A stretch of DNA of 64,000 bases, taken from the NCBI GenBank assembly GCA_030695565.1, contig JAUYRZ010000128.1:1-64000 (forward strand), written 5' to 3'. This stretch comes from Archangium sp. (GTDB lineage: Bacteria; Myxococcota; Myxococcia; Myxococcales; Myxococcaceae). Under the pieces are notes generated by a model. The model saw only the letters and a list, made by a program, of their open reading frames with translations. It ran no database searches and was not told the origin of the DNA. Positions 106 to 11,260 of the stretch are shown here, in pieces; position 1 is the stretch's first letter, and each line of letters starts with the position of its first letter. The position numbers and the translations under genes were made by a program.

Positions 106-2778
106 TCACGCCCGCGGGCCTCTCACCGCAGTAGTGCTAAGATCGTCCTTTGTTACCCGCATCACAGTCGAGTATTGGCTCAGCGTCCGCAACGCAACTC
201 CGACAACCGATTCGATAGCCTGAATCTTAACTGAACCGGGAAGCAACGCGGGGAAACTCCGAACAACCTGTCCGATTACATGCATCGACTTCACGCATTT
301 GAAATATGCATTCAGCACGACGGTTGCTTCCGCCGTCCCAGCCTCCGCGGCCTTCCGGACATCCTCCTGCGCTTGTTCGACTTGGTCTTGGCTCTCGCGG
401 AATCTGCGTAGTCGCTTCTCATCCAAATTTACATCTTCTAGAATGTTTTGCGGCCAAGCAGACGCGAGACCAAAATCAAGCGTTAGCGGGTCAGCGAGGG
501 CCTCGTCCGCGAATACGGCATTCGTCGCCGTAATTGCCTTCTGGACCGCGCCGAGGTCTTTTGAGAAGTACAGATAACAGACCAAGATGTTTGCCGATTC
601 GTCGCGGTCGATTGTTGAGATGAGTTGGTCGATCGCCTCGTCCGCTTGGGCGCGCAATTCCGGGTCCTGTTTTTGAATTTGCAATGCCTTCGCGCATGAT
701 AGGTAATACATGTGCGGATATCGAAAGACTAATCGCCCATCACGCAGTCGCAGAAGGCGCGCATCGAGAAGCGCCTCACGGATATGTTCTTGACTGAAAT
801 CAGTGAGGCGGCTCGCATTGAAGGCGGATGTTAATGCAAGAAATTCATCCTCCGTCATTTCACGAATTCCGCCAACAAACATGTATATCGCAATTTCGGC
901 CAAGATCGCTTGGAGGAACTCAGCAGGTACCCGTCGACTGTTTCGCGCCAACGAGGCCTGCAGAAGCACTTCGAAAATAGCGCCGTATGCACCGGCCGAA
1001 AGGTCAGTGTTCGTTGCCAGTGTGTGCGCCTGAATTAATGTGAGGACGCAAATCGGCTGGCTTGGAAATATTCCGCGGCCTACGTGGCCGTTTACATACG
1101 TCTCTGCAGAGGCGACGAGGTTCTCGTACTCGTCCTCGCCTGAAAGTAAGTCTGCACCTATGCTGTACCACTTCTCAACCAGTTCGCGCTTCGCCCTTCG
1201 ACCCAGATCCCGTATCGTTGCGCGCTGATAGTGAAGTAGGCCATCGCGGGCCTCGGCGTTTCCCAAGACGATCTCAACGGCGGGAAAGAGATCGCTTACA
1301 AGCGCAATAACTTTCCCGAACAGCTTTCCACTGTTGTTTAAGAGATGTCCGAACTTCGCCTTGTCGACGTTGGCAAGGTCAAGGTTGTCAATAATGAGAA
1401 CGGCGGATTCTGGCGTGTTCTGCAGGATCGCGGAGAGCGATTCGCCACCGTAGGTGGCCCGATATGCCTGCTCAAATTTTGACATCAATTCCGCGACGTC
1501 GAAGCAATTGATAGTTGCGCCCTCTATCCACACGACAGTGTGTCCGGTCGCGAGTAACGCCTGTGCGAGCATCTTTGCGATCGCAGTGCGGCCTGAGCGT
1601 TCGGCACCGTCAATCAACAAATGCTTTTGGGCGAGGAGGCGTTCTCTCGCGGGTTCACCGCCTAATTCAAGAGACGGCCCCTTCTCGACACGATCGAGGT
1701 GTTGAAATGAGAAGTCCGGCCAAACAAATAGGTCCTCGACGCGTAGGTCGCTGGCGCGAGGATGCGAAAAGTTAATATCCGGTGAGGACAGAAACTCAAC
1801 GAATGCCGGCTTGGGCTTCTTGGGCGAGTGCGCGGCGGCGCCAATTCGTTCCAGTTTTGAGGTTTCCGGTTCAAGCGCCTCGTAGGCGCGAGTGGTGCCT
1901 TTCCACTTGTATACCTGATGGATAAGTTCGCGATTTGCGCCATCAACGCGGAGCATTGCGAATCCGCTCGAGTCATTTCCGGCAGATTGAAATGCCGGCG
2001 CATCCACCACCACCACGGCATTCCCAGATGGGTCCGATGTGGTTGTGATGTCGGCCATGTGTTCATGACCAACAAGCAGAATATCAACGCTCCTCAAGAT
2101 ATAGTCGCGAAAGGAACGCGCCGCGCCTGGTGCCTGCCAATTGGCGGGGTGGTGAATCATGGCGATGCGAAAGTCGGGGTTCGTTTGTGGCGGACTGAGC
2201 ATGGCCGCGGGCACTGCCAAGCGTCCTTGCTGCTCGCGCTTCAGAGACAACCATGCGCTGTTTAAGCCTAAGATTTCTATTCGCTTATCTTCAATTGTGA
2301 TTTCATCAACGTATCCAATTCGTCTTTGGTTGGACTCTGCTGTTCCGCTGGTCTTGGACTCGCACGTCCAGAAGTCAGCCTGCACGGAAGCGCAAATGTC
2401 GACGATAGAGGCCGCTGCGCCTTCCACGGTGTCAGAGTCAAGCATGGGCGTGATGAGCGCGGTGCGAACCGCATTCTCTGTTGAGAAGTTGCAGTCGTGG
2501 TTTCCTGGAACCATTCGCAGATGAATCGATGCGCCTGGAAAGGCAACCTCGAGTTCGCTTTTGATGTCTTTGATAACGCGCGCGAAGGCTTCGTACTCTT
2601 CCTTTAGGCCCCAGTTCGCGATGTCGCCGGATATCAACACGAGAAGATGCGAGATCGTGCTGTGTTGTTGCGAGATGGCCCTGACGACGACCTTCCCTTT
2701 ATCGCCAACGAAGTTGCCGCTTGCCTTCATGTGAATGTCAGACAGATGTAATACATGAAATTTCATTGGCAGCCTCAT
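106..2778 (-). CDS. metallophosphoesterase - STAND-like NTPase fusion protein
   Basis: An 890-residue protein with two enzymatic parts. Residues 1-290 form a calcineurin-like phosphoesterase with every metal motif in order: DIH (14-16), GD (51-52), GNHD (92-95), HH (209-210) and GHEH (237-240). After a linker comes a P-loop NTPase with Walker A GAERSGRT (391-398) and Walker B VLIIDNLD (460-467), then about 400 helical residues without recognised repeats. The Walker A lysine is arginine (CGC codon), so nucleotide hydrolysis may be altered. Met5 is the likelier start: AGG lies 6 nt before that ATG, while Met1 has no ribosome binding site. The gene is visibly AT-richer than its neighbours and has no operon partner inside the window. 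An N-terminal effector fused to a STAND-like sensor is the layout of many antiphage proteins. That role is inference. Confidence 0.8.
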   Translation of the reverse strand: MRLPMKFHVLHLSDIHMKASGNFVGDKGKVVVRAISQQHSTISHLLVLISGDIANWGLKEEYEAFARVIKDIKSELEVAFPGASIHLRMVPGNHDCNFSTENAVRTALITPMLDSDTVEGAAASIVDICASVQADFWTCESKTSGTAESNQRRIGYVDEITIEDKRIEILGLNSAWLSLKREQQGRLAVPAAMLSPPQTNPDFRIAMIHHPANWQAPGAARSFRDYILRSVDILLVGHEHMADITTTSDPSGNAVVVVDAPAFQSAGNDSSGFAMLRVDGANRELIHQVYKWKGTTRAYEALEPETSKLERIGAAAHSPKKPKPAFVEFLSSPDINFSHPRASDLRVEDLFVWPDFSFQHLDRVEKGPSLELGGEPARERLLAQKHLLIDGAERSGRTAIAKMLAQALLATGHTVVWIEGATINCFDVAELMSKFEQAYRATYGGESLSAILQNTPESAVLIIDNLDLANVDKAKFGHLLNNSGKLFGKVIALVSDLFPAVEIVLGNAEARDGLLHYQRATIRDLGRRAKRELVEKWYSIGADLLSGEDEYENLVASAETYVNGHVGRGIFPSQPICVLTLIQAHTLATNTDLSAGAYGAIFEVLLQASLARNSRRVPAEFLQAILAEIAIYMFVGGIREMTEDEFLALTSAFNASRLTDFSQEHIREALLDARLLRLRDGRLVFRYPHMYYLSCAKALQIQKQDPELRAQADEAIDQLISTIDRDESANILVCYLYFSKDLGAVQKAITATNAVFADEALADPLTLDFGLASAWPQNILEDVNLDEKRLRRFRESQDQVEQAQEDVRKAAEAGTAEATVVLNAYFKCVKSMHVIGQVVRSFPALLPGSVKIQAIESVVGVALRTLSQYSTVMRVTKDDLSTTAVRGPRA

Positions 2779-2902: not shown

Positions 2903-4213
2903 TCAGGGAGCCGGCTTCACCACGTCCTTGAGGGACGCCGGCGGTGCGTTCGGATCGCGCGCAGTGACGTGAAGGTCGGCCATCGCCCACAACCCTGCGC
3001 GGCTGGGGCAGGGGCTCAGCGCGGTCCGCAAAGCGCGCGCCACGCACTCGGCCAGCTCCTTGGGCAACGGCGGGTAACCCTTCTGCTCTAGCACCTTGGT
3101 CGGCCGGCCCACCGCGTCGAACCACAACGCCCAACGTGAGTTGAGGCTGCCTGCTGCGGTGAATGCGTTCCCGAAACAACCCGTCGCCAGCCGCGGAGAG
3201 CCGGGGCTCCAGTCCTGGATGCTCGGGTCTTGCACCTTCGGTTTGAAGCGCGGGTACTTCTGGCCCTCGACCTGGTAACGCTCGAGGTACGTGGTCCAAT
3301 AACCCGAGAGCACGAAGCGGCGGTCGGCGGTCGTCTGATCACGGCGAACGAGGTCGAAGCCCACGTTCCATCGTCGGCCCGCCATCCACGCGGCCGGCGC
3401 GAGCCGCTGGAGCTGACCGCACGCGCAGCTCGCTTGCGTCACGTCTTCCGATTCAGTGCCTTCGCAACGGCCGAGCGTTCCACTCGGGGTGACCTCCATC
3501 AGCACGTCGATGCTCGTTTCGCTCGCGCTCAAGCAGCTCTGCAGCTGTGTGACCGTGAAGCCGGGGAAGCTGCTCTGTGCATCGGGGACCGCCGTGCGGC
3601 TGCGTTGATCTGCAGGCCAGAGGCGCACCTTCAGTCGATCCTCTTCTTGAATCGGAGCTCCACCCGAGTTGCCCATTCCCAAACCACCGATGAGTCCGCC
3701 CGAGTCGCGGGGGGGCGGCGGGCTGAGCTGGTCGAGGGCGGTGGCGAACGCGCTCAGCGGAGCTCCATTCTCTGCGAGGGGCGCGACGAGCGTGAACCGG
3801 TCGTCGGCGTCGTCGTCGAGCGGCCTGCCGTACACGCTGAGCTCGCACCCTGCGTCCGCCGCGCACCACACCTGAGCGCTCACGCTCCCCGTCACGCCCA
3901 GCGCCTGGCCCCAGCGCTTGCGGGCACCCCACGAGCTCAGCCCCTTTCCACACGAGGCGCCGCTGAACGGGTTGCGGCCCTCGGCGGCGAGCGCCCAGGC
4001 GCGTTGAACGGTCTCGAGCGGGAACACCCCCGCATCGCGCTGGGAGAGCGCCTCGGCCAGAATCACCTGCGCACGCGCGCGTTCGTCAGAGAAGAGCCCC
4101 AACCCGTGCACCGCTTCGACCTCGAGGCCCTTCGGAGGTGAAGCCGGCGCCGTCGGAAGCAGAGGCGCAGCTGTGCAGCCAACGAAGAAGAGCCCGAGGA
4201 GCGGGGTGCGCAT
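2903..4213 (-). CDS. putative lipoprotein, unknown function
   Basis: A 436-residue protein with a lipoprotein signal: Arg2, a short hydrophobic stretch and a lipobox ending FVGC with Cys13 as the lipidated residue. It should be anchored in a membrane facing the periplasm. The middle contains a Pro/Gly-rich linker (around residues 165-185). Two segments, one near residues 235-275 and one near 355-400, look like the TonB-C-like 'value times G..V..L...C' modules common in myxobacterial lipoproteins. Eight or more cysteines suggest disulfides. I do not recognise a specific family. The gene stands alone between the phosphoesterase fusion and the divergently transcribed SRPBCC gene. Confidence 0.65.
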   Translation of the reverse strand: MRTPLLGLFFVGCTAAPLLPTAPASPPKGLEVEAVHGLGLFSDERARAQVILAEALSQRDAGVFPLETVQRAWALAAEGRNPFSGASCGKGLSSWGARKRWGQALGVTGSVSAQVWCAADAGCELSVYGRPLDDDADDRFTLVAPLAENGAPLSAFATALDQLSPPPPRDSGGLIGGLGMGNSGGAPIQEEDRLKVRLWPADQRSRTAVPDAQSSFPGFTVTQLQSCLSASETSIDVLMEVTPSGTLGRCEGTESEDVTQASCACGQLQRLAPAAWMAGRRWNVGFDLVRRDQTTADRRFVLSGYWTTYLERYQVEGQKYPRFKPKVQDPSIQDWSPGSPRLATGCFGNAFTAAGSLNSRWALWFDAVGRPTKVLEQKGYPPLPKELAECVARALRTALSPCPSRAGLWAMADLHVTARDPNAPPASLKDVVKPAP

Positions 4214-4263
4214 GGGCGCGCCTTCTACGCGGCAGAGGCAGGTCGTGGTACCTCCTGGCTTCC

Positions 4264-4890
4264 ATGCCCGTTCGCGCGTGCAGCTTCTGGTGGCTCCTCT
4301 GCTCCGGCCTGGCGTTCGCCCAGCCGGTGGAGATCCCCACGCTGACCGCGGAAGAGACGAAGAAGCTCGACGCGGGCGGGGTGGTGATTCACGACCTCAA
4401 GCCCACCGACGACAAGGGCGTCTCGGGTGAAGCGCTGGGTGTCATCGACGCGCCGACCACCGAGGTGTGGCCGGTGGTGCGCGACTGCGAACACTTCTCG
4501 CTCTTTCTCCCCAGCACCAAGAGCAGCTCGCGGAAGACCGAAGGCGAAGACAGCATCTGCTTCGACGAGATCAGCATGCCGTTTCCACTGGCCAACCTCT
4601 GGGCGGACACGAAGTCGGTCGCGCGTGAATCACCCACCGGGCACTTCAAGCGCGAGTGGTCGTTCGTGCGCGGCACCTACAAACGCAATCGCGGCTCGTG
4701 GACGGTGGTGCCGTGGGGCGCGGACGGAAAGAAGTCGCTGGTGGTGTACCTGGTCGACTCGGATCCCGCGATCCTCGTGCCTGAGTTCATTCTTCGCGCG
4801 GCGCAAGCCGGCTCGTTGCCGCAGGTCTTCGTGGGAATTCGCAAACGTGTCACGGCGCTGCGGGCGTCGGCCGATGCCGGCGTTCGGTAA
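4264..4890 (+). CDS. secreted SRPBCC/START-like protein (copy 1)
   Basis: A 208-residue protein starting at ATG 4264, with a signal peptide ending in a typical AFAQ site near residue 22. The mature part has the SRPBCC (polyketide cyclase/START) pattern: VIDAPTTEVWPVVRDC, then a substrate-cavity region and a C-terminal helix. An upstream in-frame ATG at 4138 would place extra residues before the signal peptide and is unlikely. It is a clear paralogue of the gene at 10661-11260, sharing the whole layout (KPTDxKG, EVWPV, NLW.DT.SV, VRGTY.RN.GSW, DSDP.I). The ligand is unknown, but the fold binds hydrophobic molecules. Periplasmic location is inferred from the signal peptide. Confidence 0.75.
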   Translation: MPVRACSFWWLLCSGLAFAQPVEIPTLTAEETKKLDAGGVVIHDLKPTDDKGVSGEALGVIDAPTTEVWPVVRDCEHFSLFLPSTKSSSRKTEGEDSICFDEISMPFPLANLWADTKSVARESPTGHFKREWSFVRGTYKRNRGSWTVVPWGADGKKSLVVYLVDSDPAILVPEFILRAAQAGSLPQVFVGIRKRVTALRASADAGVR

Positions 4891-5461: not shown

Positions 5462-6385
5462 ATGACTCGCATCGCCAGCCGACCTCCGCCGCGCCCCGCA
5501 ACCGACCGCACGCCCGCAGTGAAAGCCGACACGCGCAAGCAGCTCAAGGCCACCTTCGAGAAGTTGGCCAAGGCCGGCACGCTCGAGTTCAGCAAGGCGC
5601 CCGCGGGAGATCAGTACGTGCGCGTGCCGCTCAAGGCAGGCAAGGGCCCTGATCAGTACTCGTACACCGCGCTCATCCCGACGGGAGGGAAGTCGAAGGA
5701 TCCGAACAAGGCCGACGGCTTCTTGATCGAGCGCAGTGGTGGGCTCGCGGGACGCAAGCAGGTCGCCGGTCCCTTCACGTTCGAGGGCAAGAAGCTGGGC
5801 AAGCCGGCTCCGTTCTTCGAGAAGTTCCTCGAGGGGCAGAAGAACGGCGGCACCGTCACCACCAAGCGGTACCCGTCTGATGAAGAGGCGACCGAGCCGA
5901 CCAAGCCGGGCACGGGCGTGACCACCAAGCGCTACCCGTCTGATGAAGAGGCGGTCGAGCCGACCAAGCCCACCAAGCCGGGCGGCATGATGCAGACGAT
6001 GCGCTACCCGTCGGACAACGAGTCGGTCGACACCAAGCCGACCAAGCCGGGCGGCATGATGCAGACGATGGCCTACCCGTCGGACAACGAGTCGGTGGAT
6101 CAGAAGCCGACCAAGCCGGGCGGCACGATGCAGACCATGCGCTACCCGTCGGACAACGAGTCGGTCGACACCAAGCCGACCAAGCCGGGCGGCACGGTGC
6201 AGACCATGCGCTACCCGTCGGACAACGAGTCGGTGGATACCAAGCCGACCAAGCCGGGCGGCACCGTGCAGACCATGCGCTACCCCTCGGACAACGAGTC
6301 GGTGGACACCAAACCGACCAAGCCGGGCGGCATGGTCACCACCATGCGCTTCCCTTCTGACAACGAAGACAACAACGTCCGCTGA
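5462..6385 (+). CDS. multi-core graspetide (microviridin-type) precursor peptide
   Basis: A 307-residue RiPP precursor. ATG 5462 is chosen because GAGG sits 6-7 nt upstream. Residues 117-126 read PFFEKFLEGQ, matching the helical leader motif (PFFxRFLE) that microviridin ATP-grasp ligases bind. Residues 131-307 are eight tandem cores: two TTKRYPSDEEA, then QTMRYPSDNES (one with Ala for Arg) and a final TTMRFPSDNED. They are separated by Lys/Pro/Thr-Gly spacers (TKPTKPGG). This matches the microviridin core T-x-K-Y-P-S-D-x-E, whose Thr-Asp and Ser-Glu side chains are joined as omega-esters. The lysine needed for the third, amide ring is replaced by Arg, and the second acidic residue is mostly missing, so two esters per core are expected. 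The 116 residues before the leader motif are far longer than ordinary microviridin leaders and look partly folded. The ligase gene follows after 3 nt. Confidence 0.88.
   Translation: MTRIASRPPPRPATDRTPAVKADTRKQLKATFEKLAKAGTLEFSKAPAGDQYVRVPLKAGKGPDQYSYTALIPTGGKSKDPNKADGFLIERSGGLAGRKQVAGPFTFEGKKLGKPAPFFEKFLEGQKNGGTVTTKRYPSDEEATEPTKPGTGVTTKRYPSDEEAVEPTKPTKPGGMMQTMRYPSDNESVDTKPTKPGGMMQTMAYPSDNESVDQKPTKPGGTMQTMRYPSDNESVDTKPTKPGGTVQTMRYPSDNESVDTKPTKPGGTVQTMRYPSDNESVDTKPTKPGGMVTTMRFPSDNEDNNVR
5810..5839 (+). other. graspetide leader recognition motif (PFFEKFLEGQ)
   Basis: Codons 117-126 of the precursor encode PFFEKFLEGQ, directly followed by a Lys-Asn-Gly-Gly linker and the first core. In characterised microviridins the equivalent PFFARFLE helix docks on the ATP-grasp ligase. 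Its presence ties precursor and ligase together. Confidence 0.85.
5852..6382 (+). repeat. eight tandem graspetide core repeats (about 69-bp period)
   Basis: Cores occupy 5852-5917, 5918-5986, 5987-6055, 6056-6124, 6125-6193, 6194-6262, 6263-6331 and 6332-6382. Units 2-7 are exactly 23 codons. Cores 5-7 are nearly identical in DNA, pointing to recent unequal-crossover expansion, while cores 1-2 (Lys at the variable site) and 8 (truncated, Phe for Tyr) form separate sequence classes. Confidence 0.9.
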
Positions 6386-6388
6386 GCC

Positions 6389-7381
6389 GTGCGGGTTCTG
6401 CTGATCACCCACAGCGGTGACAACGAGAGCATCGAGATGGTCAGCCGCGAGCTCTCGCGGCGGCGGCACACGCCTGTGCGGCTCGACACCGATCTCTACC
6501 CGACGGAGGTTCAGATCTCGTCGGAGCTGGTGGGGAAGAGGTCTCGCCGTTGGCTCACCGTCAACGGCGAGCGCACCGATCTCCAGCAGGTCGGCGCGCT
6601 CTGGTACCGCCGCTACTACGTGGGCTACGCGCTGCCCGGCGATCTGGGCGATACGCGGCAGGCCTGTGTCGACGAGGCCCGGCGCACGCTCTACGGCACC
6701 ATCGCGTCGCTCGATTGTTTCCAGCTCGATTCGCTGCGGGCGGTGCGGCGGTGCGATCACAAGGAGCTGCAGCTCGAGCGCGCCAGGGCGTTCGGCCTCG
6801 ACGTTCCACGCACCTTGTTCACCAACCAGGCCGATGCCGTTCGCGCGTTCGCCCGCACGGTGAAGGTGCCGTTGATCACCAAGATGCAGCACTCGTTCGC
6901 GATCTACCGCGAGGGCGAGGAGCAGGTGGTCTTCACCACCGCGCTCAGCGAAGACGATCTGGATCAGCTGGAGGGCCTCGAGTTCTCGCCCATGACTTTC
7001 CAGGAGAAGGTGCCGCGCAAGCTCGAGCTGCGCGCGACGGTGGTGGGCAACAAGGTGTTCACCGCTTCGATCGACGCGAAGCTGCTCGAGAAGACGGGCG
7101 TCGATTGGCGGCGTGATGGGGTCGAGCTGCTCGAGCAATGGAAGCCGTACCAGCTGCCGCGCGCGGTGGAGAAGTCGTTGCTGCGCCTGACGAAGTGGTT
7201 CGGGCTCAACTACGCGGCGGCTGACTTCATCGTCACGCCCGAGGGGCGGCACCTGTTCCTCGAGATCAATGCCGGTGGCGAGTTCTTCTGGCTGCAGCGT
7301 ACGCCGGGGTTGCCGATCGCACAGGCGCTCGCCGAAGTGCTCACCACGCCGTCAGCCAGAGCCTGCCACCTCGAACCCTGA
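6389..7381 (+). CDS. MvdD-like ATP-grasp graspetide ligase
   Basis: A 330-residue enzyme with GTG start 3 nt after the precursor stop, so the two are probably translationally coupled. The N-terminus (VLLITHSGDNESI, then DTDLYPTEV) is the signature of MvdC/MvdD ribosomal-peptide maturases. The ATP-grasp fold continues through KMQHSF near residue 168 to the magnesium-binding E292-I-N294 and the AGGEFFW segment. Length matches the roughly 325-residue family. Known family members phosphorylate Asp/Glu side chains with ATP and condense them with Thr/Ser hydroxyls (MvdD) or Lys amines (MvdC). Only one ligase is present, which fits cores lacking the lysine. No transporter, protease or N-acetyltransferase gene is adjacent, unlike cyanobacterial microviridin clusters. 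Confidence 0.9.
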   Translation: MRVLLITHSGDNESIEMVSRELSRRRHTPVRLDTDLYPTEVQISSELVGKRSRRWLTVNGERTDLQQVGALWYRRYYVGYALPGDLGDTRQACVDEARRTLYGTIASLDCFQLDSLRAVRRCDHKELQLERARAFGLDVPRTLFTNQADAVRAFARTVKVPLITKMQHSFAIYREGEEQVVFTTALSEDDLDQLEGLEFSPMTFQEKVPRKLELRATVVGNKVFTASIDAKLLEKTGVDWRRDGVELLEQWKPYQLPRAVEKSLLRLTKWFGLNYAAADFIVTPEGRHLFLEINAGGEFFWLQRTPGLPIAQALAEVLTTPSARACHLEP

Positions 7382-7394
7382 TCTCTCGGTCTCC

Positions 7395-7412
7395 CGCTCC
7401 CCGAGGGGAGCG
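7395..7412. terminator. GC hairpin between graspetide ligase and tacT
   Basis: Perfect 7-bp inverted repeat CGCTCCC/GGGAGCG with a CGAG loop, placed between the 3' ends of two convergent genes. There is no T-tract, so it is at best a weak or bidirectional terminator. Confidence 0.4.
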
Positions 7413-7463
7413 CCAGGCCCCGCTCGAGGTGTCGGCTTCGCGGCCGCTTCCCTCAGTAAGCGG

Positions 7464-7982
7464 TCAGCGACGCTCGGCGGCCGCGAGCCCTGCTGCTGCA
7501 GTTTGGGTCAGAAGAAAGAGACGGTGAGGCTGAGAGGCAAGGGGGATGAATCCGAAGCCCTCGTAGAAGTGCTTGGCCGCGTCGTCCTTGGCATCGACCA
7601 CGATCGCGTACGCCGCGACGGACTCCGAAGCCGCAAGCACTCGCTTGATTGCGTCCGCGACGAGCAGGCCGCCCATGCCTTGGCCTCGCTCGCTCTCTGC
7701 TCTCGCAAGGCGGCCGATGATCGCGGCGGGAATCGCGTCGTACTTCGGCAGCTTCCTGGCGAGCGCAGCGGGGAGGCTGTCGAGCGCAAGAGTGAACATG
7801 CTGAGGCTGTAGAACCCCACGATCCGATCATCGCGGAGCGCGACGAATACCTGCGCCACATGACGCTTCTGGTCCTGGCTTGCACGCGTGTGAAACCACT
7901 GGTCGAGCGCCTGGTTTCCGCAGGTGAAGTCATCGCGCTTGTGGGCGGCTGCGAGGGTTTCGAAGCGGAGCTGTTGGGTCAC
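7464..7982 (-). CDS. TacT-like GNAT toxin
   Basis: A 172-residue GNAT acetyltransferase with the acetyl-CoA loop ESERGQGMGG (around residues 95-104) and a C-terminal FYEGFGF motif. Length and sequence fit TacT/AtaT-type toxins, which block translation by acetylating the amino acid on charged tRNA. Its ATG overlaps the stop of the upstream DUF1778 antitoxin gene by 4 nt, the usual arrangement of this toxin-antitoxin class. It could be mistaken for the N-acetyltransferase of microviridin clusters because the graspetide ligase is next door. The antitoxin partner, opposite strand and intervening hairpin argue against that. Confidence 0.85.
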   Translation of the reverse strand: MTQQLRFETLAAAHKRDDFTCGNQALDQWFHTRASQDQKRHVAQVFVALRDDRIVGFYSLSMFTLALDSLPAALARKLPKYDAIPAAIIGRLARAESERGQGMGGLLVADAIKRVLAASESVAAYAIVVDAKDDAAKHFYEGFGFIPLASQPHRLFLLTQTAAAGLAAAERR

Positions 7983-8263
7983 CCGCGCAATTTTCCATGC
8001 GCGCGAAGCGCCGCAATCAGCCGCTGCTTCGGCTTCGCCGGGCGAGCGATCGCCTCGAGAAAGATTTCGCGATCCGCGCCCGTCAACCGCATGCGGTCGT
8101 GGTCTTCGATGACGCGCCGGGCGCCTTCAAAGGCGAGGTCGCCAGCTGCCAGCCCCGAGATGGCGCTGGCCTGTTCGATGAGCTTGCGGACCGAGGGAGC
8201 AACCCGCAGTTCCAGGCGCTCGGTCTTGCGTTCGACTGACCGGTTCCGTCGTGGTGCCGACAT
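7979..8263 (-). CDS. DUF1778 (TacA-like) antitoxin
   Basis: A 94-residue protein of the DUF1778 family. The N-terminal part (KTERLELRVAPSVRKLIEQAS) is a ribbon-helix-helix DNA-binding domain, and the C-terminal part (DREIFLEAIARP) is the segment that wraps the acetyltransferase toxin. It is cotranscribed with and overlaps the toxin gene. A perfect palindrome 9 bp upstream is the probable operator through which the pair represses itself. Confidence 0.85.
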   Translation of the reverse strand: MSAPRRNRSVERKTERLELRVAPSVRKLIEQASAISGLAAGDLAFEGARRVIEDHDRMRLTGADREIFLEAIARPAKPKQRLIAALRAHGKLRG

Positions 8264-10660: not shown

Positions 10661-11260
10661 ATGCGCGCCGTCCTGCTCTCTCTCTTCGCCTCCGGCATCG
10701 CCTTCGCGCAGCCCCTCGTGCTCCCCGCCTTCACCGAGGCGGAGTCGAAGAAGCTCAACGCGGGCGAGACGGTGGTGCATGAGGTCAAGCCCACCGACAA
10801 CAAGGGCATCGGCGTGCAGTCGTTCGGTATCGTCGACGCGCCCTCGACCGAGGTGTGGCCCGTGCTGCGCGACTGCGCGCACTTCGACAAGTTCATGCCG
10901 CGCACCAAGAGCAGCGCGGTCAAAGAAGAAGAGGGCGTTCCGCTCTGTCACGTCGAGCTGAACCTGCCCTTCCCGTTGATGAACCTGTGGTCCGACACCA
11001 GGTCGGTGCAGCGCGAAGAGCCGGCGGGGCACTATCACCGCGCGTGGACGCTGGTGCGCGGCACCTACCGGCGCAACAGCGGCTCATGGTCGGTGATGCC
11101 GTGGGGTGATGACGGCAAGAAGACGCTGGTCATCTACGCCATCGACTCGGATCCGATCATCTTGATCCCCGATGGCATCTTGCGTTCGGCGCAGACGGGC
11201 TCGTTGCCCGAGGTGTTCGCGGCGATTCGCAAACGCGTCGTCGCCGTGCGCGCGCCTTGA
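10661..11260 (+). CDS. secreted SRPBCC/START-like protein (copy 2)
   Basis: A 199-residue protein with an N-terminal signal peptide ending AFAQ, then the same SRPBCC domain as the gene at 4264-4890: VDAPSTEVWPVLRDC, NLWSDTRSV, VRGTYRRNSGSW, DSDPIIL. Periplasmic location is inferred. The two copies lie 5.8 kb apart on the same strand and have diverged mainly in the signal peptide and in the loop around residues 85-100. The ligand is unknown. Confidence 0.75.
   Translation: MRAVLLSLFASGIAFAQPLVLPAFTEAESKKLNAGETVVHEVKPTDNKGIGVQSFGIVDAPSTEVWPVLRDCAHFDKFMPRTKSSAVKEEEGVPLCHVELNLPFPLMNLWSDTRSVQREEPAGHYHRAWTLVRGTYRRNSGSWSVMPWGDDGKKTLVIYAIDSDPIILIPDGILRSAQTGSLPEVFAAIRKRVVAVRAP

Follow-up and report, generated by a model that had tools for sequence, protein, structure and literature searches.

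A two-gene graspetide cassette of Archangium sp. that probably encodes an uncleaved, multi-headed serine protease inhibitor

Introduction

The core of marinostatin, a small one-core peptide of the inhibitor family I10 (MEROPS/Pfam), reads ATMRYPSDSDE. Marinostatin has a PFFARFL-type leader and arises by lack of MdnB; absence of this enzyme is expected to lead to marinostatin (PMC7823629). In microviridins, MvdC/MdnB closes a lactam from Lys3 to the acid at position 10 (numbering of the cores described here) (PMC7823629). The residue after the Thr is P1 and occupies the S1 pocket in microviridin J; the P1 Met variant F5M of microviridin L has an IC50 of 0.09 µM on subtilisin, and P1 Arg and Lys favour trypsin and subtilisin (PMC7823629).

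Class II microviridin precursors, recognised by at least two consecutive cores, have up to five of them, contain double-Gly motifs and are frequently accompanied by a C39 transporter (PMC13039773). In the three-core class II precursor AMdnA of Anabaena PCC 7120, which combines a PFFxRFLE-type leader with several YPSD cores, a single MdnC-type enzyme, AMdnC, serves all cores; it acts distributively and left the three-core substrate incompletely processed (PMC5934393). Chryseoviridin, plesiocin and thuringinin likewise arise from one precursor with several cyclised cores and one ATP-grasp ligase (PMC8939145, PMC12291112), plesiocin and thuringinin being without sequence similarity to microviridin (PMC8939145). 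Uncharacterised 'microviridin' clusters of myxobacteria were listed for Archangium, Cystobacter and Sorangium in a 2025 survey (PMC12766979).

The locus described here is likewise myxobacterial and of the microviridin type. It lies in a stretch of 64,000 nucleotides from Archangium sp. (contig JAUYRZ010000128.1), hereafter the window, whose source genome comprises 8.5 Mb in 134 contigs and is 100% complete. Relatives were collected by searches of related genomes and of 84,980 species genomes.

Results and discussion

The precursor and its cores

An earlier note on this DNA had proposed a two-gene cassette, composed of a multi-core precursor and one ligase, and the analysis confirmed this composition. 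Its features are as follows.

5462..6385, plus strand: precursor gene, 307 aa, ATG start
5519..5791, plus strand: N-terminal domain, about aa 20-110, motif ERSGG[LF]AG, helix and four-stranded sheet predicted
5810..5839, plus strand: leader motif PFFEKFLEGQ, predicted to recruit the ligase, aa 117-126
5861..5887, plus strand: core 1, TKRYPSDEE, P1 Lys, aa 134
5924..5950, plus strand: core 2, TKRYPSDEE, P1 Lys, aa 155
5996..6022, plus strand: core 3, TMRYPSDNE, P1 Met, aa 179
6065..6091, plus strand: core 4, TMAYPSDNE, P1 Met, aa 202
6134..6160, plus strand: core 5, TMRYPSDNE, P1 Met, aa 225
6203..6229, plus strand: core 6, TMRYPSDNE, P1 Met, aa 248
6272..6298, plus strand: core 7, TMRYPSDNE, P1 Met, aa 271
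6341..6367, plus strand: core 8, TMRFPSDNE, P1 Met, aa 294
5891..6366, plus strand: 69-bp tandem repeat, 6.9 copies of core plus linker (K)PTKPGG (Tandem Repeats Finder)
6389..7381, plus strand: MvdD/MdnC-type ATP-grasp ligase gene, 330 aa, GTG start

The precursor (pI 9.4, no Cys, average mass 33,297 Da unmodified) begins with some 116 residues that precede the leader motif; this motif is present at the place where it had been read before, and is followed by eight cores, the number given in the earlier note. It matched the NCBIfam model NF033738 for microviridin/marinostatin in seven stretches (100.6 bits, cut-off 26, E 6e-29) and the Pfam family Inhibitor_I10 (PF12559; 68.5 bits, cut-off 21, E 6e-19). 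With the PFFxRFLE-type leader and an adjoining MvdD/MdnC-type gene as cognate ligase it shows the marks of the microviridin/marinostatin graspetides, and its eight consecutive cores agree with class II. The C39-peptidase transporter described as frequent in that class was not found in the source genome, in which the C39 peptidase family (PF03412) gave no match; 8 of 14 control genomes matched. The precursor further differs from class II by the number of cores, the long N-terminal domain and the missing lactam pair.

The repeat had been described as T-x-R-Y-P-S-D-x-E; this holds for eight repeats in general outline, although one of them carries A instead of the R found at position 3 of the other seven, and in core 8 the Y is replaced by F. 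TMRYPSDNE occurs four times, TKRYPSDEE twice, and TMAYPSDNE and TMRFPSDNE (the last core) once each. The marinostatin core nearly equals the stretch TMRYPSDNES of the window precursor; unlike marinostatin, however, this is a protein of 307 residues with eight cores, mixed P1 residues and a folded N-terminal domain. The linkers between the cores are of a Pro/Lys/Gly type (e.g. VDTKPTKPGG), and every one ends in GG or GTG followed by two or three residues. Those of the relatives are wholly unlike, with poly-Gly in place of PTKPGG.

The ligase and the gene neighbourhood

The ligase gene starts 3 nt past the precursor stop, as had been noted, and the junction TGA-GCC-GTG keeps both genes in one reading frame, which suggests translational coupling. 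The earlier note had called this single ATP-grasp protein MvdD-like and proposed an HMM search against the MvdC and MvdD families; the top NCBIfam model was indeed MvdD (404 bits, E 3e-121), 141 bits ahead of MvdC (263 bits). The protein also matched PF21068 (113.9 bits, cut-off 27). Since 404 bits lie below the 475-bit cut-off of the NCBI MvdD equivalog TIGR04184, as do the 368 and 402 bits of two myxobacterial relatives, we term the ligase MvdD-type and not the MvdD equivalog.

In the PDB the closest entry was 5IG9 (E 2.5e-90), followed by 7mgv, which is the homologous chryseoviridin ligase CdnC, 5ig8 and 7m4s (AMdnB). Entries 5IG9 and 5ig8 carry only the label 'ATP grasp ligase'; we take them to be MdnC and MdnB, respectively. 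Lys165 and Asp279 of the window ligase are invariant across the aligned relatives and correspond, through the alignment with 5IG9, to K165 and D280 of AMdnC, both essential as judged by mutants (PMC5934393). Comparison with the ligase of a congener (dN 0.09, dS 0.45, dN/dS about 0.21) points to purifying selection.

Neither a protease nor a transporter was recognised next to the two genes, and neither a signal peptide nor a transporter was seen that could serve export of the precursor. Directly 3' of the ligase lies a toxin-antitoxin-like pair on the opposite strand.

7464..7982, minus strand: GNAT gene
7979..8263, minus strand: TacA-type antitoxin gene

That the GNAT gene might encode an MdnD-like acetyltransferase was considered but dismissed, because its overlap with the TacA-type gene looks like a toxin-antitoxin pair and its strand is opposite to that of the cassette. 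Upstream of the cassette are an SRPBCC/START protein and proteins without assignment, partly syntenic with the congener. The genes at 2903-4890 are conserved near the congener's cassette, but as one is without assignment and one is of the SRPBCC/START type there was no reason to include them. Two SRPBCC/START-like paralogues (4138-4890 and 10661-11260, plus strand) share 80% and 74% DNA identity, respectively, with the gene upstream of the congener's cassette. A gene at 106-2778 (minus strand) encodes 890 aa with an N-terminal calcineurin-like phosphoesterase domain and a weak STAND-NTPase match, and could be of a defence type. The region downstream of the congener's cassette is unrelated to that of the window; precursor and ligase are what stays together.

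The N-terminal domain

The earlier reading of the precursor was right in leader and cores but missed an N-terminal domain of about 100 residues, with the conserved marks D-[GQ]-[YF]-x-[YF], DPN and [RQ][ST]GG[LF]AG. Its divergence between window and congener (dN 0.17, dS 0.70, dN/dS about 0.24) shows purifying selection. In other Myxococcota it occurs in core-less proteins (L075, L077, L078, L080, L082 and L083), and in one protein of 526 aa (L076/L114) it sits behind five cores. Judged by this distribution, it is a separate mobile domain. The five cores of the latter protein (L114:1247-2827, identical to L076:487-2067) are of the types TxKFPSD and TxKAPSD and stand in the middle of the chain, followed by the GG-AG domain; the 9.4-kb contig has no PFFxxFLE motif and no ligase, and two MvdC/MvdD pairs are located elsewhere in the genome. 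A domain of the window type is not reported for chryseoviridin, plesiocin or thuringinin in the papers cited above.

The AlphaFold2 model of the domain from the relative L071 (pLDDT 84, pTM 0.78) has one helix and a four-stranded sheet; that of the window's own domain reached a pLDDT of 73. Searches of both models with Foldseek and VIA-align returned nothing above Z 4.8. For L071 the structural matches were weak, the best VIA match being a designed cystatin-fold protein (Z 3.8), with several cystatin-like entries among the equal-scoring rows and no Foldseek E-value under 0.6. A cystatin-like fold may thus be taken as a lead, not as an assignment.

The motif ERSGG[FL]AG brought emfourin (PF20242, an inhibitor of M4 proteases) into consideration. 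It was rejected, since the matches stay below the gathering score of 27: the best, of 12.5 bits, came from one relative and lay at the SGG motif, with E 0.09 otherwise, and a weak match was present in 2 of 14 members. Emfourin above the cut-off was found neither in 40 related genomes nor in 94 genomes from the class to which the gammaproteobacterial relative L060 belongs. A profile search of the PDB with the domain yielded nothing beyond one short hit, to ribosomal protein L12 (E 0.014, at the DPN..GG motif), which was attributed to chance.

Relatives and turnover of the core array

Among members of the same bacterial family, the ligases nearest to that of the window share 61-87% identity with it, and all their precursors have the same N-terminal domain. 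The precursors contain 5 cores (L048/L074), 9 (L032), 12 (L034/L072 and L070), 13 (L035/L071) or 16 (L033/L073). The window cassette, present in only two of six sampled genomes of its genus, is a member of this myxobacterial family, whose large precursors combine 5-16 cores with an N-terminal domain of about 100 residues. The eightfold repetition that the earlier note had called unusual does exceed the published class II maximum of five but is not extreme, as relatives reach 16. An unplaced MAG (L037) encodes 10 cores behind a different N-terminal region of about 270 residues. Cyanobacterial relatives mostly have 1-4 cores and short leaders, and the large genomes examined from the window's own family (L008-L011) differ in having two ligases, small precursors of 2-4 cores and an LLE[EA]QELEQ leader. 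No description of these large myxobacterial precursors was found in the open-access literature; large graspetide lists elsewhere could contain them.

Two further variants were observed. In the MvdC-bearing relatives L070-L073, many TxKAPSD cores (Ala for Tyr at position 4) stand among TxKYPSD cores in one array. In L060, a gammaproteobacterial MAG, a six-core TLAYPSDSD precursor (7002-7850, minus strand) is convergent with its ligase (5926-6978, plus strand); its best leader-like motif, PLFVDFLKGQ, forms the extreme C-terminus, and a weaker candidate, FREWFRENKG, precedes the cores. The C-terminal motif is possibly a natural 'follower' replacing the leader; in another graspetide a C-terminal leader has been engineered (PMC13003496).

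The P1 residues of the window precursor follow the order K,K,M,M,M,M,M,M and those of the congener M,M,M,K,K,M,M,M,M; E, R, A and L also occur in other relatives. On the DNA level, window cores 3-7 resemble one another at 81-97% but the congener's Met cores at 72-83%, so that the two arrays expand separately. Common to both are two Lys-P1 cores and a terminal TMRF core, whereas the inner cores turn over. Retention of the Lys pair and the terminal core would fit selection for two specificities.

Two predicted staples per core

All eight window cores have Thr1, Ser6, Asp7 and an acid at position 9, in agreement with the two esters per core predicted earlier, and none combines Lys3 with an acid at position 10. 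The source genome has one MvdD; MvdC is absent from the whole genome, the only MvdC-like gene being the MvdD itself. The lactam ring cannot form because the MvdC enzyme and the Lys/acid pair are both absent. As the loss of MvdC is accompanied by that of the lactam Lys and its acidic partner, the cores are classed as marinostatin-type, that is, predicted to be bicyclic with two omega-esters. Of the microviridin-type assignment in the earlier note, the graspetide class is thereby retained and the type refined.

The same relationship was seen in the relatives, among loci with readable cores, MvdC being counted if adjacent or in the same genome. Lys3 and acid 10 occurred together in 133 of 137 cores from 31 sampled loci with MvdC and in 0 of 29 cores from five genomes without it, this absence having been checked genome-wide and some of the five genomes being incomplete MAGs. 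L046 and L053, which have the Lys and no MvdC neighbour, both encode MvdC elsewhere in their genomes, and second ligases at five loci were of the MvdC type by NCBIfam. Members without MvdC lost the pair by several routes: the window and L032 show R/A at position 3 and mostly A/S/G at position 10, with R only in L048, loss of the acid alone in L043, and mostly A, with V/A/Q/I, in L060. On the tree MvdC changed four times, two of them on well-supported branches, and the core pair almost always changed the same way and never contrary. Because the independent changes are too few, the Fisher value of 2e-28 is not readable as a probability, and a phylogenetic sign test was not significant; the covariation is a consistent pattern, not a significant test.

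The predicted product

In the proposed mechanism the ligase would dock on PFFEKFLEGQ and close the omega-esters Thr1-Asp7 and Ser6-Glu9 in each core, converting it into a marinostatin-type bicycle without lactam. Up to 16 esters per chain would be formed, equivalent to about -288 Da; since AMdnC processed its three cores incompletely, full 16-fold modification is not assured. The product would have the size of a protein, with eight reactive-site loops strung on Pro/Lys/Gly linkers after the folded N-terminal domain. It would inhibit serine proteases as a multi-headed protein with the leader retained, two Lys-P1 heads being suited to trypsin-like and six Met-P1 heads to subtilisin-like enzymes.

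We consider it probable that the two-gene graspetide cassette gives rise to such an uncleaved, multi-headed serine protease inhibitor, and infer crosslinks, inhibition, absence of processing, export route and the role of the N-terminal domain. One multi-headed protein is favoured because inhibition needs no leader removal, a modified precursor being inhibitory with the leader attached (PMC11672978), because there is no C39 peptidase, because the linkers differ between relatives, and because the N-terminal domain is maintained. For microviridin B, binding by a bicyclic variant was about 100-fold weaker than by the tricycle (PMC11672978); one may speculate that many heads and a subtilisin-suited P1 Met offset this.

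With the same chemistry, the protein could instead be a storage form from which an unlinked protease, cutting the linkers, releases about eight marinostatin-like peptides. The known forms of marinostatin and of microviridins are small peptides, the unit KPTKPGG recurs in the linkers, and the proteases that remove microviridin leaders often have their genes away from the cluster (PMC13039773); cutting into single modules by an unlinked non-C39 protease is possible, because every linker has the GG/GTG ending described above. We nevertheless regard a storage form as unlikely: the missing C39 peptidase and the lack of any recognised protease or transporter beside the genes speak against it, as do the poly-Gly linkers of the relatives, which leave no conserved cleavage site, and the purifying selection on the N-terminal domain. 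Distinctly less probable is a structural, adhesive or signalling protein made of crosslinked repeats, with protease inhibition incidental. The core-less proteins with the same domain and the relative with cores midway in 526 aa would suit such a role, but the cores match the inhibitor family I10, P1 Lys and Met are known from inhibitors of the marinostatin/microviridin class, and the two-Lys-P1 pattern is retained in the congener despite the turnover of the array. A tricyclic microviridin, made through an MvdC-like enzyme encoded elsewhere as in some cyanobacterial genomes in which MvdC is distant from the MvdD/precursor pair, is hardly conceivable in a source genome whose only MvdC-like gene is the MvdD and with both Lys3 and acid 10 in none of the eight cores.

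Conclusions

The chemistry of the predicted multi-headed inhibitor is already known; its novelty lies in how many loops it has, in its folded N-terminal domain and in having lost the third staple. As a tentative and rather doubtful generalisation, myxobacterial protein-sized graspetides may keep 5-16 ester-stapled loops on a new folded domain as an uncleaved protease trap of several specificities, the domain being mobile, carrying or presenting loops at either end and occurring also loop-free. If true, the cassette would show the reach of one ATP-grasp enzyme on one chain, with 16 bonds, and would provide a natural, genetically tunable string of inhibitor heads that combines different specificities within a single protein. 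The joint presence or absence of MvdC and the Lys/acid pair offers a sequence rule for predicting a bicyclic or tricyclic product from a genome, and the mobile N-terminal domain makes the need for removal of a graspetide leader directly testable.
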